From NCBI GenBank assembly GCA_025998875.1, contig AP024675.1, positions 693,589-757,588 of the forward strand: DNA of 64,000 nucleotides, given 5' to 3'. How positions within the stretch are numbered: the first letter of the stretch is position 1; each line of letters begins with the position of its first letter. The notes under the pieces were generated by a model, which was not told the DNA's origin, searched no databases, and saw nothing but the letters and a program-made list of their open reading frames with translations. The position numbers and the translations under genes were made by a program. This document shows, one piece after another, positions 3,433 through 11,419 of the stretch. This DNA is from Bacteroidota bacterium. GTDB taxonomy: Bacteria; Bacteroidota; Rhodothermia; JANXDC01.

Positions 3433-5388
3433 CTACTGGCCGGGCTTGTTCCATGCCAGCGGCACATTGGATCCGGCCGGAGATACCCGCACATACCCCT
3501 GCATCTCCTGATGCAGAGCGGAACAGAAGTCCGTGCAGTAGAACGGGTACACGCCGGGCTTCTTGGGCTCCCAGCGCAGGGTGAGCGTCTCCCCGGGCAT
3601 GATGAGGAGCTCCGCGTTCGTACCGCCCTTGATGGCAAAACCGTGCGGAATATCCCAGTCCTGCTCCAGGTTCGTCACATGGAAGTAGACCACGTCCCCT
3701 ACGCGGATCCCTTCGATGTTGTCCGGCATGAAGTGCGAGCGGATGGCGGTCATGTATACGTGCACCTCATTGCCCCGGCGCTCCACACGGGCGTCCTGCT
3801 CCCGCTTGACCGCATGCGGGTGCTCGTTCTCCTCCAGCGGATAGATCTTCTTCTGCCGCTGCACAACGAGATCGGCCACAATACCCTGCGCATAGTGCGG
3901 TTCGCCGACCGTGGGGAAATCCAGCAACAGGCGCATCTTCTGGCCCGAGATATCGATAAGCTGGGCCGACTGCAGCAGCTCAGGACCCGTAGGCAGATAG
4001 CGGTCCTTGGTGATCTTGTTCATCGCCAGCAGGTATTTGCCCCACGGCTTTTTGGAATCCCCACCTGGAATCATGAGGTGCCCAATGGAGTAATAGGTCG
4101 GAATGCGATCCACCACCTCGAGCGTCTTGGGATTCCATTTGACGACTTCGGAGCTGACGAAGAAAGAGGTGTAGGCAAAACCCTTGTCGTCAAACTCCGT
4201 GTGCAGGGGACCCAGACCGGGCTTCTGCACCTCCCCGTGCAGAGCGGCCTCATAGCGAATAACCGGTATCCCGTCGATCTCGCCCTCGAAAGCCTTCTCC
4301 TGGATGGCCTTCTGGATCTTGGAGAAGGAGTATACCGGAATCACAGTGGCCAGCTTGCCGCCGCCAACGATGTATTCTCCGCTGGGATCCACATCTACCC
4401 CATGGGGAGATTTGGGGCAGGGAATCAAGTATACAAGACCGGGATGCTCTTTGGGATCCAGCATGATGACCTCGGTCTTGCGCTCCGAGAAGGCCATCTG
4501 CTTGCGTTCATCGAACCAATTGTGATAGTACTCCGCCGACCAGCGCTGCCCCTTGCCCTGGGAGATGAGCTCCTCGGCCAGCCGCCAGTTCACCGCGGCG
4601 ATGAAGTCTTTGTCGCGCTGGCTGGCGTTGATCTCCAGCAGAGAATAGGCCTGCTCGGAATTGTAGCAGGAGAAGAAGAACCACCCATCGGAGACGTTCT
4701 TGCCCGCATGGGCCAGATCGTAGTTGAAGCCCGGCATCAGGATCTGCCAGGCCAAGTCCATGCGGCCCGTCTGGGGATCCACCTTTACAAAGGTGATCGT
4801 GCCCCGAAAGTTCTGCTTGTACGTCTCAATGGGCACATCTCGCTGGGGAACGGGTACGCTGAAGCGCGTGGCCGCCACCACGTACTCCGTATTCGGCGTC
4901 ACGAACGGAGAGGCGTGGTTGCCTCCGGAATGCGGGATCTCCAGCATCTCCACCGTGCGAAAAGTGGCCAGATCGATCCGCGCAATCCGGGGCGTGTTGT
5001 TGGCGTTGATGAACAACCAACGACCATCAGGCACCCCGTCGGTCTGGGATAGCTCCGGATGGTGGCTGTCATCCCAGGGGACGAAACCGTTGGAAGTCAT
5101 CAACAGGGGCCGGGTCTCCTCCGAATATCCGTAGCCGTTCTCCGGATTGACGGAGAAGACCGGGATGATCCGAAGCAACCGCCCGCTCGGCAACCCGTAG
5201 ACGGACACCTGCCCGCTGAACCCCCCGGACAGAAAAGCATAGAACTCATCGTACTTGCCCGGCGGCACGTATACCTTGAGCGCCGCATCCTGATCGGCAG
5301 CCATCTTCGTGGCGGGACAGCCCGCAAACAGCCCCGCCAGCAGGCTCAGTCCCCCGAGCGCTGTCCAGATAATCGCCCTGTGCCTCAT
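3433..5388 (-). CDS. nosZ: Nitrous-oxide reductase NosZ, Sec-type (clade II)
   Basis: Multicopper periplasmic enzyme reducing N2O to N2, the last step of denitrification. It is 651 aa. The N-terminus MRHRAIIWTALGGLSLLAGLFAGC is a Sec signal with a near-lipobox (FAGC, Cys24) and no twin arginines, as in the clade II enzymes. A seven-bladed propeller follows, with CuZ-type histidines in DDSHHPE, HSGGNHASPF, CPKSPHGVDV, GPLHTEFDDKG, SIGHL and GEPHYAQG. The C-terminal cupredoxin domain has DWDIPHGF and the CuA ligands Cys618, Cys622, His626 and Met629 in FYCTDFCSALHQEM. A strong Shine-Dalgarno AAGGAGGG precedes the ATG. Nothing is missing from the catalytic set that I can see. The expected electron donor is the cytochrome encoded just upstream. 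Confidence 0.97.
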   Translation of the reverse strand: MRHRAIIWTALGGLSLLAGLFAGCPATKMAADQDAALKVYVPPGKYDEFYAFLSGGFSGQVSVYGLPSGRLLRIIPVFSVNPENGYGYSEETRPLLMTSNGFVPWDDSHHPELSQTDGVPDGRWLFINANNTPRIARIDLATFRTVEMLEIPHSGGNHASPFVTPNTEYVVAATRFSVPVPQRDVPIETYKQNFRGTITFVKVDPQTGRMDLAWQILMPGFNYDLAHAGKNVSDGWFFFSCYNSEQAYSLLEINASQRDKDFIAAVNWRLAEELISQGKGQRWSAEYYHNWFDERKQMAFSERKTEVIMLDPKEHPGLVYLIPCPKSPHGVDVDPSGEYIVGGGKLATVIPVYSFSKIQKAIQEKAFEGEIDGIPVIRYEAALHGEVQKPGLGPLHTEFDDKGFAYTSFFVSSEVVKWNPKTLEVVDRIPTYYSIGHLMIPGGDSKKPWGKYLLAMNKITKDRYLPTGPELLQSAQLIDISGQKMRLLLDFPTVGEPHYAQGIVADLVVQRQKKIYPLEENEHPHAVKREQDARVERRGNEVHVYMTAIRSHFMPDNIEGIRVGDVVYFHVTNLEQDWDIPHGFAIKGGTNAELLIMPGETLTLRWEPKKPGVYPFYCTDFCSALHQEMQGYVRVSPAGSNVPLAWNKPGQ

Positions 5389-5464: not shown

Positions 5465-5926
5465 CTACTCCTCGCCGGCGGCCTGCCTGAGAAATTCCAG
5501 AATCGCCCGCGCTTCCTGTTCGGTGACGTTCTGGAAGGTCATCTTTGTCATGTATTCCTCGACCAGCTTCTGTACCTCGGGATGCCGCTCCTGCATACCC
5601 TCCGGGTTGAGGATCATGTTCATGATGTACTCCGGAGAGCGCCTGAGGGTGACCTCCCGCAACGGCGGCCCCACATAGCGCATGTCGAGTTTGTGGCAGC
5701 TGGTGCACTTCTGTTCAAAGATCACCTTACCCTGTTCGGCCAGGGTGGGGTCCACGGGACCGAGCTGCAACTTCTCCTTGATCGGTCCGATTTCCAGCTC
5801 AAGGGGTCTGGCCGCTACTCCTGTTCCATCAGTTCCCCCCGCCGGCTGTTCGGCCTTCGATCCTCCGCCACAGCCCATTCCCAGACCCAGAAGCAGTAGA
5901 AGAACGGGCAAACCGAGACGCTGCAT
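5465..5926 (-). CDS. Lipoprotein c-type cytochrome, likely electron donor to NosZ
   Basis: Monohaem cytochrome c, 153 aa, anchored to a membrane by a lipoprotein signal MQRLGLPVLLLLLGLGMGC (Cys19 in the lipobox). A flexible Gly/Glu-rich linker leads to one haem site CTSCH and a distal methionine region (TKMTF), which is the fold of small class I cytochromes. Clade II nos clusters often carry such genes (nosC-like), so electron delivery to NosZ is the natural role. It is the first gene of the operon. The ribosome-binding site AAGGAG lies 7 nt before the ATG. The gap to nosZ is 76 bp and contains a second promoter candidate. Confidence 0.9.
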   Translation of the reverse strand: MQRLGLPVLLLLLGLGMGCGGGSKAEQPAGGTDGTGVAARPLELEIGPIKEKLQLGPVDPTLAEQGKVIFEQKCTSCHKLDMRYVGPPLREVTLRRSPEYIMNMILNPEGMQERHPEVQKLVEEYMTKMTFQNVTEQEARAILEFLRQAAGEE

Positions 5927-6539: not shown

Positions 6540-7892
6540 ATGTCGGTCGATCGAGACGCCTTGCGTGTGGCCAAGCGTGTTTTTCAGGAGAATAAAGCGT
6601 TCACCCTCGTAACCCAGGGATCTTCCGGTGTGTGGGCCGGAAAGGCCTACTTTGCCGAGCACGACGGATATCTCTACACGGCCCTGGAACAGGGAAGAAA
6701 TTACCGGAATGTGCTGGAAAACCCGGAGGTGACCTTCGTAATCGAGCGCGGCATACCGGATCGCTTCATACAGGGCAAGGGCATCGCCGAGCCACTCGGC
6801 CCGATCGAAGAACGTCCGGAGCGGCACTACATCTTTCGCAAGGCGCTGGAGCTGGTCCTGTACGCCAAGCTTATTCCCGGCGTGACGGTATTCCGGATCC
6901 GGCCCACGAAGCTTTTCGTGAGCGACTTTACGGAATTCTGGAAACCCCGTGCCGAGATTGAGGTGACCGATGAGGCGCTGGAGCTGTTCCGCTCCGAGCT
7001 ACGGGACCGCGTGGCCCGATGGCGGGTGTATGGGAAGGCGGTGCGCCCATTTTCTTTTACGGCTACCCTTGCTCCCGTACTCCTGGGCGCTTTGCTGGCG
7101 CCCCAGCTATCCTGGGCACTTCTAGGGCTGACCCTGTTGGGAACGCTTCTAGCCCACGCGGGAGTCAATGTGATCTCCGACTACATGGATTGGCGTCGGG
7201 GAGCGGATACCTGGCGAGTGCTGGGTTCAAGCCGAGTCCTTGTGGACGGGCTCCTGTCCCCCCGTGCGCATCGCAATTTTGGGATCGTGCTCCTGGCCCT
7301 GGCCGGGCTTACAGGCATCTGGCTCGTTCTGCAGAGCGGTCCGGCGATCTGGTATCTTATGGCCGCAGGTGCAACGCTGGGGGTGTTTTACACCGTCCCC
7401 CCGATCGGGCTCAAGTACCGCGCCCTGGGAGATGTGGCCGTTTTCCTGGCTTTCGGTCCCCTGATGGCTCTGGGCGCCTATTACGTGCAGACGGGCGCAC
7501 TGGACCTCCGGCCCGTCTGGCTGTCCATACCCATTGGCCTGCTGACCATTGCCATCCTGCACGGAAATAATTACCGGGATATCCTGGAAGATCGCCAGGC
7601 GGGCTATCGTACAGTGGCGGGGATTCTAGGTCCTCGGGGCTCGGCCTGGTACTACACGGCACTCGTGGCCGGTGCCTACGCCCTTACCGTGTTCTTTGTG
7701 CTCACGGGATGGCTACCCCTCTGGAGCCTGTTGGTGTTCCTGACGCTGCCCACGGCCGTACGCAATATCCGGGTGGCGTTCAATCACGCCCGGGTATCCT
7801 TTAGCTTCCTGGATCTGCTCACAGCCCAGCTGCACCTGTACTTCTCGGCAGCCCTGCTGGCCGGGATCGCGCTGGCACGCTGGATGCCCTGA
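6540..7892 (+). CDS. FMN-binding split-barrel domain fused to a UbiA-family prenyltransferase (MenA-like)
   Basis: 450 aa. Residues 1 to about 145 resemble the pyridoxamine-5'-phosphate-oxidase-like FMN barrel (FTLVTQGSSGVWAGKAYF, LYTALEQGRNYRNVLENPEVTFVIE). Residues 165-450 are a polytopic UbiA prenyltransferase with both aspartate-rich motifs, NVISDYMDWRRGADT and NNYRDILEDRQAG, which bind the Mg-prenyl diphosphate. MenA-like attachment of an isoprenoid to 1,4-dihydroxy-2-naphthoate is the most likely reaction; other UbiA substrates remain possible. The flavin domain could reduce or sense the quinone product. The ATG at 6540 is chosen because GGAGG lies 8 nt ahead; an upstream in-frame GTG at 6525 would include that site. 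aroC follows after 19 bp, linking chorismate supply to quinone synthesis. Confidence 0.85.
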   Translation: MSVDRDALRVAKRVFQENKAFTLVTQGSSGVWAGKAYFAEHDGYLYTALEQGRNYRNVLENPEVTFVIERGIPDRFIQGKGIAEPLGPIEERPERHYIFRKALELVLYAKLIPGVTVFRIRPTKLFVSDFTEFWKPRAEIEVTDEALELFRSELRDRVARWRVYGKAVRPFSFTATLAPVLLGALLAPQLSWALLGLTLLGTLLAHAGVNVISDYMDWRRGADTWRVLGSSRVLVDGLLSPRAHRNFGIVLLALAGLTGIWLVLQSGPAIWYLMAAGATLGVFYTVPPIGLKYRALGDVAVFLAFGPLMALGAYYVQTGALDLRPVWLSIPIGLLTIAILHGNNYRDILEDRQAGYRTVAGILGPRGSAWYYTALVAGAYALTVFFVLTGWLPLWSLLVFLTLPTAVRNIRVAFNHARVSFSFLDLLTAQLHLYFSAALLAGIALARWMP

Positions 7893-7911: not shown

Positions 7912-9120
7912 ATGCTGCGTTACCTGACGGCAGGAGAATCGCACGGGCCTGCACTTGTGGGCATCGTAGAGGGCATGCCCGCCGGGGTACCCCTTTCTCC
8001 TCAGCTCATCACCCATCATCTGCGACGCCGACAGCTGGGCTACGGCCGGGGGGGACGGATGAAGATCGAATCGGACACGGTGCGTATCCTCTCCGGCGTT
8101 CGTTACGGCTATACGATCGGATCTCCTGTGGCCCTGCTTATCGAAAATGAGGCCTTCCTCAGAGACGCGGCCAATTGGCCCCATGTCATGTCCGTCGAGC
8201 CCGTCTCGGATCCAGCCCCTCCGGTGAGCGTACCTCGTCCCGGACATGCCGATCTGGTCGGATGGCAGAAGTACGGTTTCTCCGACATACGGCCCGTCAT
8301 CGAACGAGCCAGTGCGCGGGAAACGGCCATGCGGGTGGCCTGCGGATCGGTGGCCAGGGCGCTATTGGAAGCGCTGGGCGTCGAGGTCGGCAGCCACGTG
8401 GTGCAGATCGGGTCGGTTGGCTATCCGGATCGGGCGCATCTGGATCGGCTACTGGATCCCCTGCTCAGGCGGGGCGCCTGGGCCGTATCCGAGGCCGCGG
8501 ACGCCTCCCCGGTACGCTGTCTGGATCCGGATTTGAGTGCGCAGATGGTCCAGCAGATCGAAGAGGCCAAGCGGAGGCGGGACTCTCTGGGGGGCGTCTT
8601 CGAGGTATGGGTGACCGGCCTCCCCCCCGGGTTGGGCTCGTACGTGCACTGGGATCGCAAGCTGGACGGCCGTCTGGCACAGGCCCTCATGTCCATTCAG
8701 GCCATCAAGGGGGTGGAAGTCGGCTACGGTTTTGAGCTGGCCGGCCGGTATGGATCCGAGGCACACGATGAGATCCTCATCCGAGAGGGGCGCTTCAGCA
8801 GGGCCAGCAATCGGGCCGGTGGGATCGAAGGGGGGGTTTCTACGGGGGAGCCCATTCTACTGCGGGCCGCCATGAAGCCCATTCCCACGATCGCCTCCAA
8901 CGCGCTCTGGACGGTAGATGTGCGCACCCGTCGGCGGGTACGCACACGCTATGAGCGCTCGGATATCTGCACCGTGCCGGCCGCCGCGGTGGTCGGAGAA
9001 GCCGCGGTGGCCTTCACCCTCGCTCAGGCCCTTCTGGAAGTCACCGGCGGCGATCATCTGGAGGAGATCAGGCAGCGCTTCGAGGGCCTGCGCGCCCGTT
9101 TTTATGCGGGCTTCGCCTGA
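7912..9120 (+). CDS. aroC: Chorismate synthase
   Basis: Converts 5-enolpyruvylshikimate-3-phosphate to chorismate using reduced FMN, the last common step to aromatic amino acids, folate and menaquinone. It is 402 aa, slightly longer than the E. coli enzyme. Signatures are the N-terminal YLTAGESHGPALVGIVEGMPAG, RRRQLGYGRGGRM, the RPGHADLVGWQKYG segment and SARETAMRVACGSVAR, and the C-terminal DVRTRRRVRTRYERSDIC. No signal peptide, cytoplasmic. It probably shares a transcript with the UbiA fusion gene 19 bp upstream. The end converges on a sensor-kinase gene with 12 bp between the stop codons. Confidence 0.97.
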   Translation: MLRYLTAGESHGPALVGIVEGMPAGVPLSPQLITHHLRRRQLGYGRGGRMKIESDTVRILSGVRYGYTIGSPVALLIENEAFLRDAANWPHVMSVEPVSDPAPPVSVPRPGHADLVGWQKYGFSDIRPVIERASARETAMRVACGSVARALLEALGVEVGSHVVQIGSVGYPDRAHLDRLLDPLLRRGAWAVSEAADASPVRCLDPDLSAQMVQQIEEAKRRRDSLGGVFEVWVTGLPPGLGSYVHWDRKLDGRLAQALMSIQAIKGVEVGYGFELAGRYGSEAHDEILIREGRFSRASNRAGGIEGGVSTGEPILLRAAMKPIPTIASNALWTVDVRTRRRVRTRYERSDICTVPAAAVVGEAAVAFTLAQALLEVTGGDHLEEIRQRFEGLRARFYAGFA

Positions 9121-9135
9121 GCCCTGGAAGGCTCA
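9118..9135. terminator. Short convergent hairpin built from the two stop codons
   Basis: TGAGCC (9118-9123) pairs with GGCTCA (9130-9135) around a 6-nt loop. The left arm contains the aroC stop TGA and the right arm the complement of the kinase stop. There is no T-run on either side, so any termination would be weak and two-directional. Confidence 0.35.
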
Positions 9136-10578
9136 TGTGGGCTTCGAATGAGCGAAGCGCAGACGGGGTTGGAGCCGGCGCTTTTTACTGGCCAGCTCCG
9201 TACGGGGCAGATAGAGCGTGATCCGGGTACCTGTGCCGACGTGGCTCTGGATTTCCCAGTGTCCCCCCAACCGCTCTATGATATAGCGCACCAGCACGAG
9301 CTCCAGACCGCTCCCCTGCGTAAAGTAGGCGCGCTCCGCCGTGATGCCGAAAAGATCGTTGAGCGCCTCGATATCGGATTCCGAAAGCAGGGTAAAGGAA
9401 TCCCAGACCTGCAGGTAGACCTCCTCCTCGTTGTACACCCCGGCCTCGAAGCGCGCCTGCACCCCTTCCTGAGGCACCCCCAGCGCGCGTCGCAGAAGCG
9501 CCTCCAGGGCCACTTCTAGCAATGGAGGGTGCGTATAAGCCATAAGCGGCGCTTCCGGCAGATGCCAGCTCATCTGACACACTGTGCGGGACGCGGCTAG
9601 CGTACGTTCTAGGACGCCGCATGCCAGCCCGCCCACATCGGCCTCCCATAAGGTAGGGGAGTCCTCGTTTACCATCAGTTCGGCCAGCTGCGTGTAGTCC
9701 GCTACGAGCCGATTGAGCCGCGCAGCGGCCTCGGCGGCGATACTCCATAGTTCGCGCAGGTCTTCGTGCTCTTCCACGTAGGGCTGCATCATCTCCAGGG
9801 CGCTCGAGATAGGCGTAATCGGGGTGCGCAGTTCATGGGACAGGACGGTGATAAACTGCCGTTTCATGCCATCCAGCCGCTCCAGCTCGCTGCGCCGTAG
9901 TGCCTCCAGATTGGAGCGCAGGGCATCGCTCGTCTGTTGATACTGGGCCCATGCATATAGGCGCCATTGCCGCCGCAACATGTGGGCAAGCACAATGCCC
10001 AACGTTGTAGCTCCCGCCCAGAGCAGGATGACCGTTCCGTGCGGCCCGGGCAACAGGAGCATCGCAAAGAGCAAGCAAACCGACAGGGCCAGAATCAGCC
10101 GGGCCTCTGCGTAGAAAACGTACAGAAACACCCATAGCAGGAAAACACCCACCGGCGCAAGGGGCTCTAGAGCGTCGAGCCCTCCGAGCACACCCAGACC
10201 AACCCACCCGGCGGCATCCCAACCGGCCAACACCCATCGAGATCGGACGGGCTTATACCTGGGCTTCAGCCATCGCCACAGCCTCCACAGGCCCAGTATA
10301 TACAGGAGCCCGGCCCCGGCCACCTGAGCCGCCACAGGCCACCCGCTCTGCGCCCCTGAAAGCGTGCAGAGAAGGCCAAAGGCGCCTGCGCGCACCCACA
10401 GCATGCGCCGCTCCAGGCGGCGAAACCGGCCGGAAAAATACCGATCCACATCGAGCTCCAGATCCGGCCTGGGCGCGTTGCGGAAAAACCGAACCGCGCC
10501 CTCCACCAGCAGCCGTACCGGGTGCACCCGCGGCAGTTCTTCATACCAGCGCCGTATGGGGTCTGCAAGAGTACGCAT
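9133..10578 (-). CDS. Membrane sensor histidine kinase with degenerate ATP-binding domain
   Basis: 481 aa. Six or so membrane helices fill residues 60-200, followed by a short coiled linker and an intact DHp H-box FITVLSHELRTPITP with the phosphorylatable His248. The catalytic domain is odd. Where the N-box asparagine is expected there is LLEVALEALLRRALG, and the G1 box (DxGxG) reads VWDSFTLLSES. Only the G2-like GSGLELVLVRYIIERLGGHWEIQS and GTGTRITLYLP remain normal. It may therefore be a poor or non-catalytic kinase. No response regulator lies next to it. The start is set at ATG 10578 (MRTLADP), because the open frame further upstream encodes unlikely low-complexity protein and covers a divergent intergenic region. 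Confidence 0.82.
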   Translation of the reverse strand: MRTLADPIRRWYEELPRVHPVRLLVEGAVRFFRNAPRPDLELDVDRYFSGRFRRLERRMLWVRAGAFGLLCTLSGAQSGWPVAAQVAGAGLLYILGLWRLWRWLKPRYKPVRSRWVLAGWDAAGWVGLGVLGGLDALEPLAPVGVFLLWVFLYVFYAEARLILALSVCLLFAMLLLPGPHGTVILLWAGATTLGIVLAHMLRRQWRLYAWAQYQQTSDALRSNLEALRRSELERLDGMKRQFITVLSHELRTPITPISSALEMMQPYVEEHEDLRELWSIAAEAAARLNRLVADYTQLAELMVNEDSPTLWEADVGGLACGVLERTLAASRTVCQMSWHLPEAPLMAYTHPPLLEVALEALLRRALGVPQEGVQARFEAGVYNEEEVYLQVWDSFTLLSESDIEALNDLFGITAERAYFTQGSGLELVLVRYIIERLGGHWEIQSHVGTGTRITLYLPRTELASKKRRLQPRLRFAHSKPT

Positions 10579-10861
10579 ACGGAAGGAGGCATCCGTAAAA
10601 AGTGTGCCTCTCAGGGGAGGAGAAAATGCGCATGATATCCGGGAACCTTTTTTTGACCCTGCCGAAAACAAGTCAAAACGTCCCCCGTCTCCGAGTTCGT
10701 TTTGTGCCCGCTCTGGGTTCGGATCGAAAACTTTTTGCAGGGGCTTGCCCCCTCCGCTGTCCCGTGCCTTATTTCGGTGTGTTGCCGGCGGGTTGGGGGG
10801 GCGATGTAACCCGTGGGTGCGCAGAAGCGTCATAGCCAGACGATCAGAAAAGGGAGGGCTC
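10579..10861. other. Divergent intergenic region between the kinase and the UpxY-like gene
   Basis: 283 bp without a gene. It must hold promoters for both flanking genes, but I find no full TAnnTTTG box. Visible elements are an inverted repeat TTTTGAC (10651-10657) / GTCAAAA (10672-10678) with a 14-nt spacer, a small stem GGGGC-TT-GCCCC near 10740, a T-run at 10648-10654, and a Shine-Dalgarno AGGGAGGG ahead of the plus-strand ATG at 10862. Confidence 0.4.
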
Positions 10862-11419
10862 ATGGCCGATGGTTTATCACGTCGCTGGTATGTCGTCTAC
10901 ACGCGGGCTAATGCGGAAAAGCGCGTCTTTGATCGGCTTCAAGAGCGACATATCGAGGCCTACCTTCCCCTGCTTCGCCAGCGTCGCCAGTGGAGAGACC
11001 GCAAAAAATGGGTAGACGTCCCCGTATTTCGAAACTATGTCTTCGTCCGTATTGCGCTGCAAGAATATCTCTATGTGTTGCAGGTGGAGGGCATCGTGCA
11101 GTTTGTCTGTTTCGGGGGCAAGCCGGCTTCTATCCGGGATGAAGAAATCGAGGCCGTCCGGCGTCTGCTCGGGAACGAAGCCGAACGCGTAGAGGTCGTG
11201 CACGGAGATCTGGCCGAGGGGGATTGGGTGCGTGTCGTAGCAGGCCCTCTCAAGGGGCTCGTGGGCCGATACGTGATGCGCAAGGGATGCGGACGGTTGC
11301 TCATCTATATCGAACACATCTCCCAGGGTCTAGCCGTGGAGGTGCCGGCGGGTTACGTGGAACGGCTGCGGGAGGAGGCGCTCCTGGAAAGGAGGGGGCT
11401 CTATCCTAGCGGGCCGTGA
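10862..11419 (+). CDS. NusG paralogue of the RfaH/UpxY type (specialised antiterminator)
   Basis: 185 aa. The N-terminal NGN domain is clear (RRWYVVYTRANAEKRVFDRLQER, then PVFRNYVFVRI), and the C-terminal KOW segment reads GDWVRVVAGPLKGLVGRYV. The family binds RNA polymerase and carries it through terminators; UpxY members in Bacteroidota act on single surface-polysaccharide operons. The length and the LPLLRQRRQWRDRKKWVDVPVF segment separate it from housekeeping NusG, which normally lies next to secE and rplK. No polysaccharide operon follows here: the next gene, after 92 bp, is a DUF2279 protein. Its target may be elsewhere on the chromosome. Confidence 0.85.
   Translation: MADGLSRRWYVVYTRANAEKRVFDRLQERHIEAYLPLLRQRRQWRDRKKWVDVPVFRNYVFVRIALQEYLYVLQVEGIVQFVCFGGKPASIRDEEIEAVRRLLGNEAERVEVVHGDLAEGDWVRVVAGPLKGLVGRYVMRKGCGRLLIYIEHISQGLAVEVPAGYVERLREEALLERRGLYPSGP

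Follow-up and report, generated by a model that had tools for sequence, protein, structure and literature searches.

A PNPOx-like split barrel fused to a MenA/UBIAD1-family prenyltransferase in three bacterial lineages

UbiA-type quinone prenyltransferases, for example UBIAD1, act on aromatic acceptors that must be in the reduced form, and as a rule the reductant comes from a separate source. We analysed a stretch of 64,000 nucleotides from a Bacteroidota genome (contig AP024675.1 of assembly GCA_025998875.1), referred to here as the window. It encodes a UbiA prenyltransferase that is preceded, in the same chain, by a split-barrel domain. What does such a barrel do for the enzyme that it is fused to? 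We suggest, with a probability of slightly more than one in three, that the flavin-type barrel reduces the quinone head group for its own MenA/UBIAD1-family prenyltransferase. If true, reduction and prenylation would be combined in one enzyme, and the protein would be a natural probe of UBIAD1-type vitamin K synthesis. It would also bear on how Kapabacteria, which have complex I and no menaquinone pathway that was recognised here, get their quinones.

Domains of the fused protein

The fused gene is an uninterrupted frame of 450 codons, with the sequence GGAGGG approximately 8 bases 5' of the ATG at position 6540. In the full-length model the barrel is followed by a linker helix and then by nine membrane helices. 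The initial annotation, made from the sequence alone, described an FMN-barrel-like domain (1-145) and a full UbiA domain in one chain, with both Asp-rich motifs and with aroC next to the gene. Fold prediction and Pfam bear out the two domains, both motifs are present, and aroC starts 19 bases downstream. The coordinates are given in Table 1.

Table 1. Position in the window of the fused gene, its domains and motifs, and the gene that follows it.
Feature	Position	Strand	Basis
Fused protein, 450 aa: N-terminal split barrel and C-terminal UbiA prenyltransferase	6540..7892	+	Single open frame with ribosome site; 12 fused sequences
FMN-type split-barrel domain, residues 10-141	6567..6962	+	Weak PNPOx_N match, AlphaFold2 model, Foldseek PDB
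Residues 52-78, GRNYRNVLENP...FIQ, with R/K53 and Q78 as the presumed flavin contacts	6693..6773	+	Conservation and PNPOx analogy
Linker helix, residues 142-160	6963..7019	+	Least conserved part, 58% identity within genus
UbiA prenyltransferase domain, residues 161-450, nine membrane helices	7020..7889	+	Pfam PF01040, PDB UBIAD1, model
First Asp-rich motif, N210-V-I-S-D214-Y-M-D217	7167..7190	+	Invariant residues in alignment
Second Asp-rich motif, N343-N-Y-R-D347-I-L-E-D351 (NNYRDILED, residues 343-351)	7566..7592	+	Invariant residues in alignment
aroC, chorismate synthase, next gene	7912..9120	+	Chorismate_synt 392 bits (Pfam)

The Pfam model PNPOx_N matches residues 12-125 of the whole protein with an E-value of 1e-3 and 19.9 bits, and the N-terminal domain scanned alone with an E-value of 1.2e-4. 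Over both scans the scores are 19.9-22.9 bits and stay below the cut-off of 28.1. Each of eight aligned relatives matches this model too, with a best E-value of 9e-9. A profile search with the barrel found the structures of Rv2991, HutZ and GSP26 (E-values 8e-4 to 6e-3). AlphaFold2 gave a confident split barrel (pLDDT 88.5, pTM 0.85), and the best 50 Foldseek matches in the PDB are all split barrels of the PNPOx/HutZ/HugZ/GSP26 type, with E-values down to 2e-8. Because the relatives' alignment, the profile search, AlphaFold2 and Foldseek all agree, the weak PNPOx match is real. The initial annotation had allowed that the N-terminal domain might turn out not to be an FMN barrel; Pfam stays below its cut-off, yet the predicted structure and its Foldseek matches identify a split barrel. 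The PNPOx-like split barrels Rv2991, GSP26, Pden_1323 and HutZ have the same fold and the same basic-residue/N-P pattern as the fused barrel, but they are less than 20% identical to it and none of them carries a membrane prenyltransferase in the same chain.

In each of the 18 homologues, position 53 holds R or K and position 78 holds Q. We take these residues to be FMN contacts by analogy with PNPOx, and their invariance is consistent with putative FMN binding. F420 is disfavoured as the cofactor of the barrel, since a search for CofD gave no match across 14 genomes.

The UbiA domain is matched by PF01040 over residues 177-405 with an E-value of 7e-36 and 124.2 bits, against a cut-off of 34.2. 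Residues N210, D214, D217, N343, N344, D347 and D351 are invariant in the 12 fused sequences. Of the NCBIfam models, those for MenA match best: TIGR00751 gives 102.9 bits and is barely above its cut-off of 102.15, and the PRK06080 models give 155 bits against 264, and lower. The best PDB match by sequence is UBIAD1, the eukaryotic MK-4 synthase (E-value 1e-33). UBIAD1 (PDB 8djk) is also the best match of the membrane part of the full-length model, with a TM score of 0.80 over the target and 31% identity, and thus the closest solved structure. It has the same Asp-rich motifs as the fusion, but the chain matched is without a flavin barrel, and the enzyme needs an added reductant in vitro (PMC4398444). 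The combination of barrel and prenyltransferase is absent from the solved structures matched by the full-length model. In the tree, the fused clade falls on the UBIAD1 side, separated from the MenA of Rhodothermus-class genomes and of Kapabacteria with support 100/100; the position of UBIAD1 itself depends on a long branch.

With nine helices, parity in the model places the N-terminal barrel on the same membrane face as the two Asp-rich loops. There are 15 K/R residues on this face and 1 on the other, and because of this charge difference it is placed in the cytoplasm. The model thus shows the barrel and the Asp-rich active-site loops on the same, predicted cytoplasmic, face.

The two domains differ in conservation. 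In 59 of the 66 pairs of fused sequences, identity is higher in the barrel than in the UbiA domain; the means are 78% and 69%, respectively. Between the two species of the window genus, the UbiA domain has a dN of 0.167, against 0.045 in the barrel and 0.29 in the linker, at a similar dS in the two domains (1.17 and 1.35). Selection on the barrel is stronger than on the transferase, which is what one would expect if the barrel has a share in the reaction.

Distribution and gene neighbourhoods

An error of sequencing that joins two genes had been named in the initial annotation as an alternative to a true fusion. A second species of the window genus (G001) carries the fusion, 82% identical, and so do ten further genomes. 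These 12 fused sequences, from the window genus, Kapabacteria and Kryptonia, rule out such an error, and the fusion is real and conserved across the three lineages. Three of the genomes (G092, G252 and G330) come from a sample of the phylum. A scan of approximately 85,000 genomes gave eleven loci, partly from the same genomes, in Kapabacteria, Kryptonia (Chrysopegis and Kryptonium), two 'Chlorobiota' bins and two Bacteroidota. Where the contig is long enough, the scan loci encode complete fusions of approximately 450 residues; L067 and L071 are truncated at contig ends. In a sample of the class, 8 of 149 genomes carry the fusion, all of them from families f34 and f60. The identical neighbourhoods of L167 and L070 indicate that family f60 is Kryptonia.

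In the window's own class the barrel is present in 2 of 60 genomes, both of the window genus, and the tree places the fusion of this genus next to Kapabacteria. Based on these observations, the window genus probably acquired the fused gene from Kapabacteria or shared it with them. The groups bearing the fusion are hot-spring lineages. A fusion of UbiA and PNPOx was not found in the literature searched, and may exist as an unremarked database architecture. Both domains are already known, and their pairing is what is new as far as that literature goes. Coq12 of S. pombe, a separate flavin-reductase-type protein of CoQ synthesis, is a loose parallel only.

The genes that flank the fusion vary from lineage to lineage. 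The adjacency to aroC is kept in the sister species G001 and was not seen in the other fusion lineages; confined in this way to the window genus, it makes aroC a weak candidate for a functional partner. Divergent from the fused gene, the window has nosZ (3433-5388, negative strand), encoding a Sec-dependent nitrous-oxide reductase of the clade II type (TIGR04246, 973 bits against 625), and a cytochrome c gene (5465-5926, negative strand). A role tied to the nosZ genes is unsupported, since fused genes elsewhere adjoin other genes. In Kapabacteria, a gene recognised by eye as HPPD lies three genes downstream, and homogentisate was considered as acceptor; this was dropped, as HPPD is not a neighbour in the other lineages. 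The loci examined show no biosynthetic cluster around the fused gene.

Some further neighbours were noted. In Kryptonia (L068-L070 and L168) the fused gene is followed, in all loci seen, by a small membrane-protein gene that by eye resembles a CDP-alcohol phosphatidyltransferase. The window also has a sensor-kinase-like gene at 9133-10863 on the negative strand. A frame on the positive strand (10364-11419) overlaps it, and the C-terminal part of this frame is NusG/UpxY-type-like by eye.

Stand-alone barrels that are 25-30% identical to the fused one were found in family f38. In three of six genomes of this family (G119, G160 and G339) the barrel gene directly precedes a gene for a MenA-like UbiA, in a cluster with two more UbiA genes. 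In the tree, this MenA-like UbiA belongs to the same larger clade as the UbiA domain of the fusion. The adjacency is an independent association of the barrel with a MenA-like enzyme. In the remaining three f38 genomes, and in two further families that have the barrel, no such UbiA gene lies next to it. At L052 (7760-11512) and L051 (718-4126), a stand-alone split barrel is clustered with three genes for MenA-like UbiA proteins, and in L052 a YCII-like gene was recognised by eye. The genomes of these two loci have ten UbiA genes in all.

Quinone synthesis and possible roles of the barrel

The window genome has three UbiA genes, encoding CtaB, an MqnP-type transferase and the fusion. The MqnP-type gene adjoins an aminofutalosine-deaminase-like gene, and MqnA/D-type and MqnC genes are present, that is, the futalosine pathway; neither MenD nor MenB was found above cut-off in this genome. 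It appears to make its own menaquinone. Kryptonia have futalosine genes like those of the window genome (MqnA/D-type, MqnC and MqnP-type) and likewise no MenD or MenB above cut-off. Kapabacteria encode, besides the fusion, a canonical MenA (178 and 192 bits), and they have a second MenA-like paralogue. In the genomes G092, G252, G330 and G396-G398 of Kapabacteria, and G119 and G160 of family f38, MenD, MenB and MqnC gave no match above cut-off and MqnA/D none that was convincing. Complex I and several MenA-like genes are present in these genomes.

MqnP, the prenyltransferase of the futalosine pathway, belongs to the UbiA superfamily like the fusion, and an MqnP-type gene is found in the same genome (L002), but it is of a different subfamily and the fusion does not match MqnP models. 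The canonical bacterial MenA, a DHNA polyprenyltransferase, is of the same family as the fusion. However, the fusion has no men genes beside it and forms a separate clade, and the two coexist in Kapabacteria. Since the genomes have prenyltransferases of their own and the tree splits the fusion from canonical MenA, the UbiA domain is an extra member of the MenA/UBIAD1 family. The earlier description as a menaquinone-type enzyme is therefore right about its likeness to MenA and UBIAD1, as seen with TIGR00751 and the UBIAD1 structure, but what it describes is an additional paralogue beside an MqnP-type transferase or a canonical MenA.

We suggest that the fused protein reduces, then prenylates. 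In brief, the barrel would bind FMN, and electrons would flow from the FMN to a quinoid head group, for example a naphthoquinone or a related ring. The hydroquinone so made would be the prenyl acceptor that UbiA enzymes need, and the fused UbiA domain would prenylate it in the same chain. Instead of bulk menaquinone synthesis, the enzyme may serve to salvage or remodel quinones, or to make a second one. UBIAD1 yields no MK-4 without a reductant, and it was concluded that menadione must be reduced before it is prenylated (PMC4398444). A flavin barrel on the face of the active-site loops would provide such a reduction. For this reason we favour redox chemistry before prenylation, and not after it as in the order proposed by the initial annotation. 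A more specific proposal, which we regard as doubtful, is that of a self-contained bacterial counterpart of UBIAD1, in which the barrel reduces a quinone and the UbiA domain prenylates it for quinone salvage or remodelling, including in the Kapabacteria without a recognised menaquinone pathway. Salvage fits these Kapabacteria, with complex I and no recognised MenD, MenB, MqnA/D or MqnC, better than it fits the window genome, which is apparently able to make menaquinone itself.

A redox-sensing or dimerising role of the barrel is nearly as likely as a reductive one. The barrel could possibly be a non-catalytic sensor or assembly module: with flavin or some other redox ligand bound, it would dimerise and, depending on redox state, gate the prenyltransferase or pair it with a second one. 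A flavin-sensing domain that controls prenylation was also the alternative offered by the initial annotation. Most split barrels form dimers that hold the ligand at their interface, and a UbiA domain alone is normally enough for catalysis, as in the stand-alone relatives. The strong conservation of the barrel would suit such a module, but a regulator is usually less conserved than its enzyme, and here the barrel is the more conserved of the two. It should also be noted that stand-alone barrels occur in other families without a UbiA neighbour, and this type of barrel therefore has a function of its own.

It is unlikely that the barrel acts after prenylation, or by other chemistry on the aromatic acceptor such as a PhzG-like oxidation or aromatisation, giving an unusual prenylated product. 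PhzG and LnzB are among the Foldseek matches, and the fusion is extra to the menaquinone set. However, the PhzG-type matches align worse (rmsd approximately 9-11 A) than the short barrels of the GSP26/HutZ/Pden_1323 type, and the lack of a biosynthetic cluster around the gene argues against an unusual product.

It is more improbable still that the fusion is the organism's own MenA with a decorative N-terminal extension, serving ordinary menaquinone synthesis. The MenA models as best NCBIfam matches and the aroC neighbour would fit this, but aroC is adjacent in the window genus only. The futalosine genes of the window genome, the absence of MenD and MenB above cut-off, and the separation in the tree from the canonical MenA that coexists with the fusion in Kapabacteria all disfavour it.

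The least probable role is heme binding as in HutZ/HugZ, linking heme handling to prenylation: HutZ is the top Foldseek match by E-value, several heme-binding split barrels come next, and the nearest folds include these and proteins of unknown function, but FMN-type barrels match equally well, heme binding by HugZ needs parts outside the split-barrel core, and for heme O the genome encodes CtaB as a separate protein.
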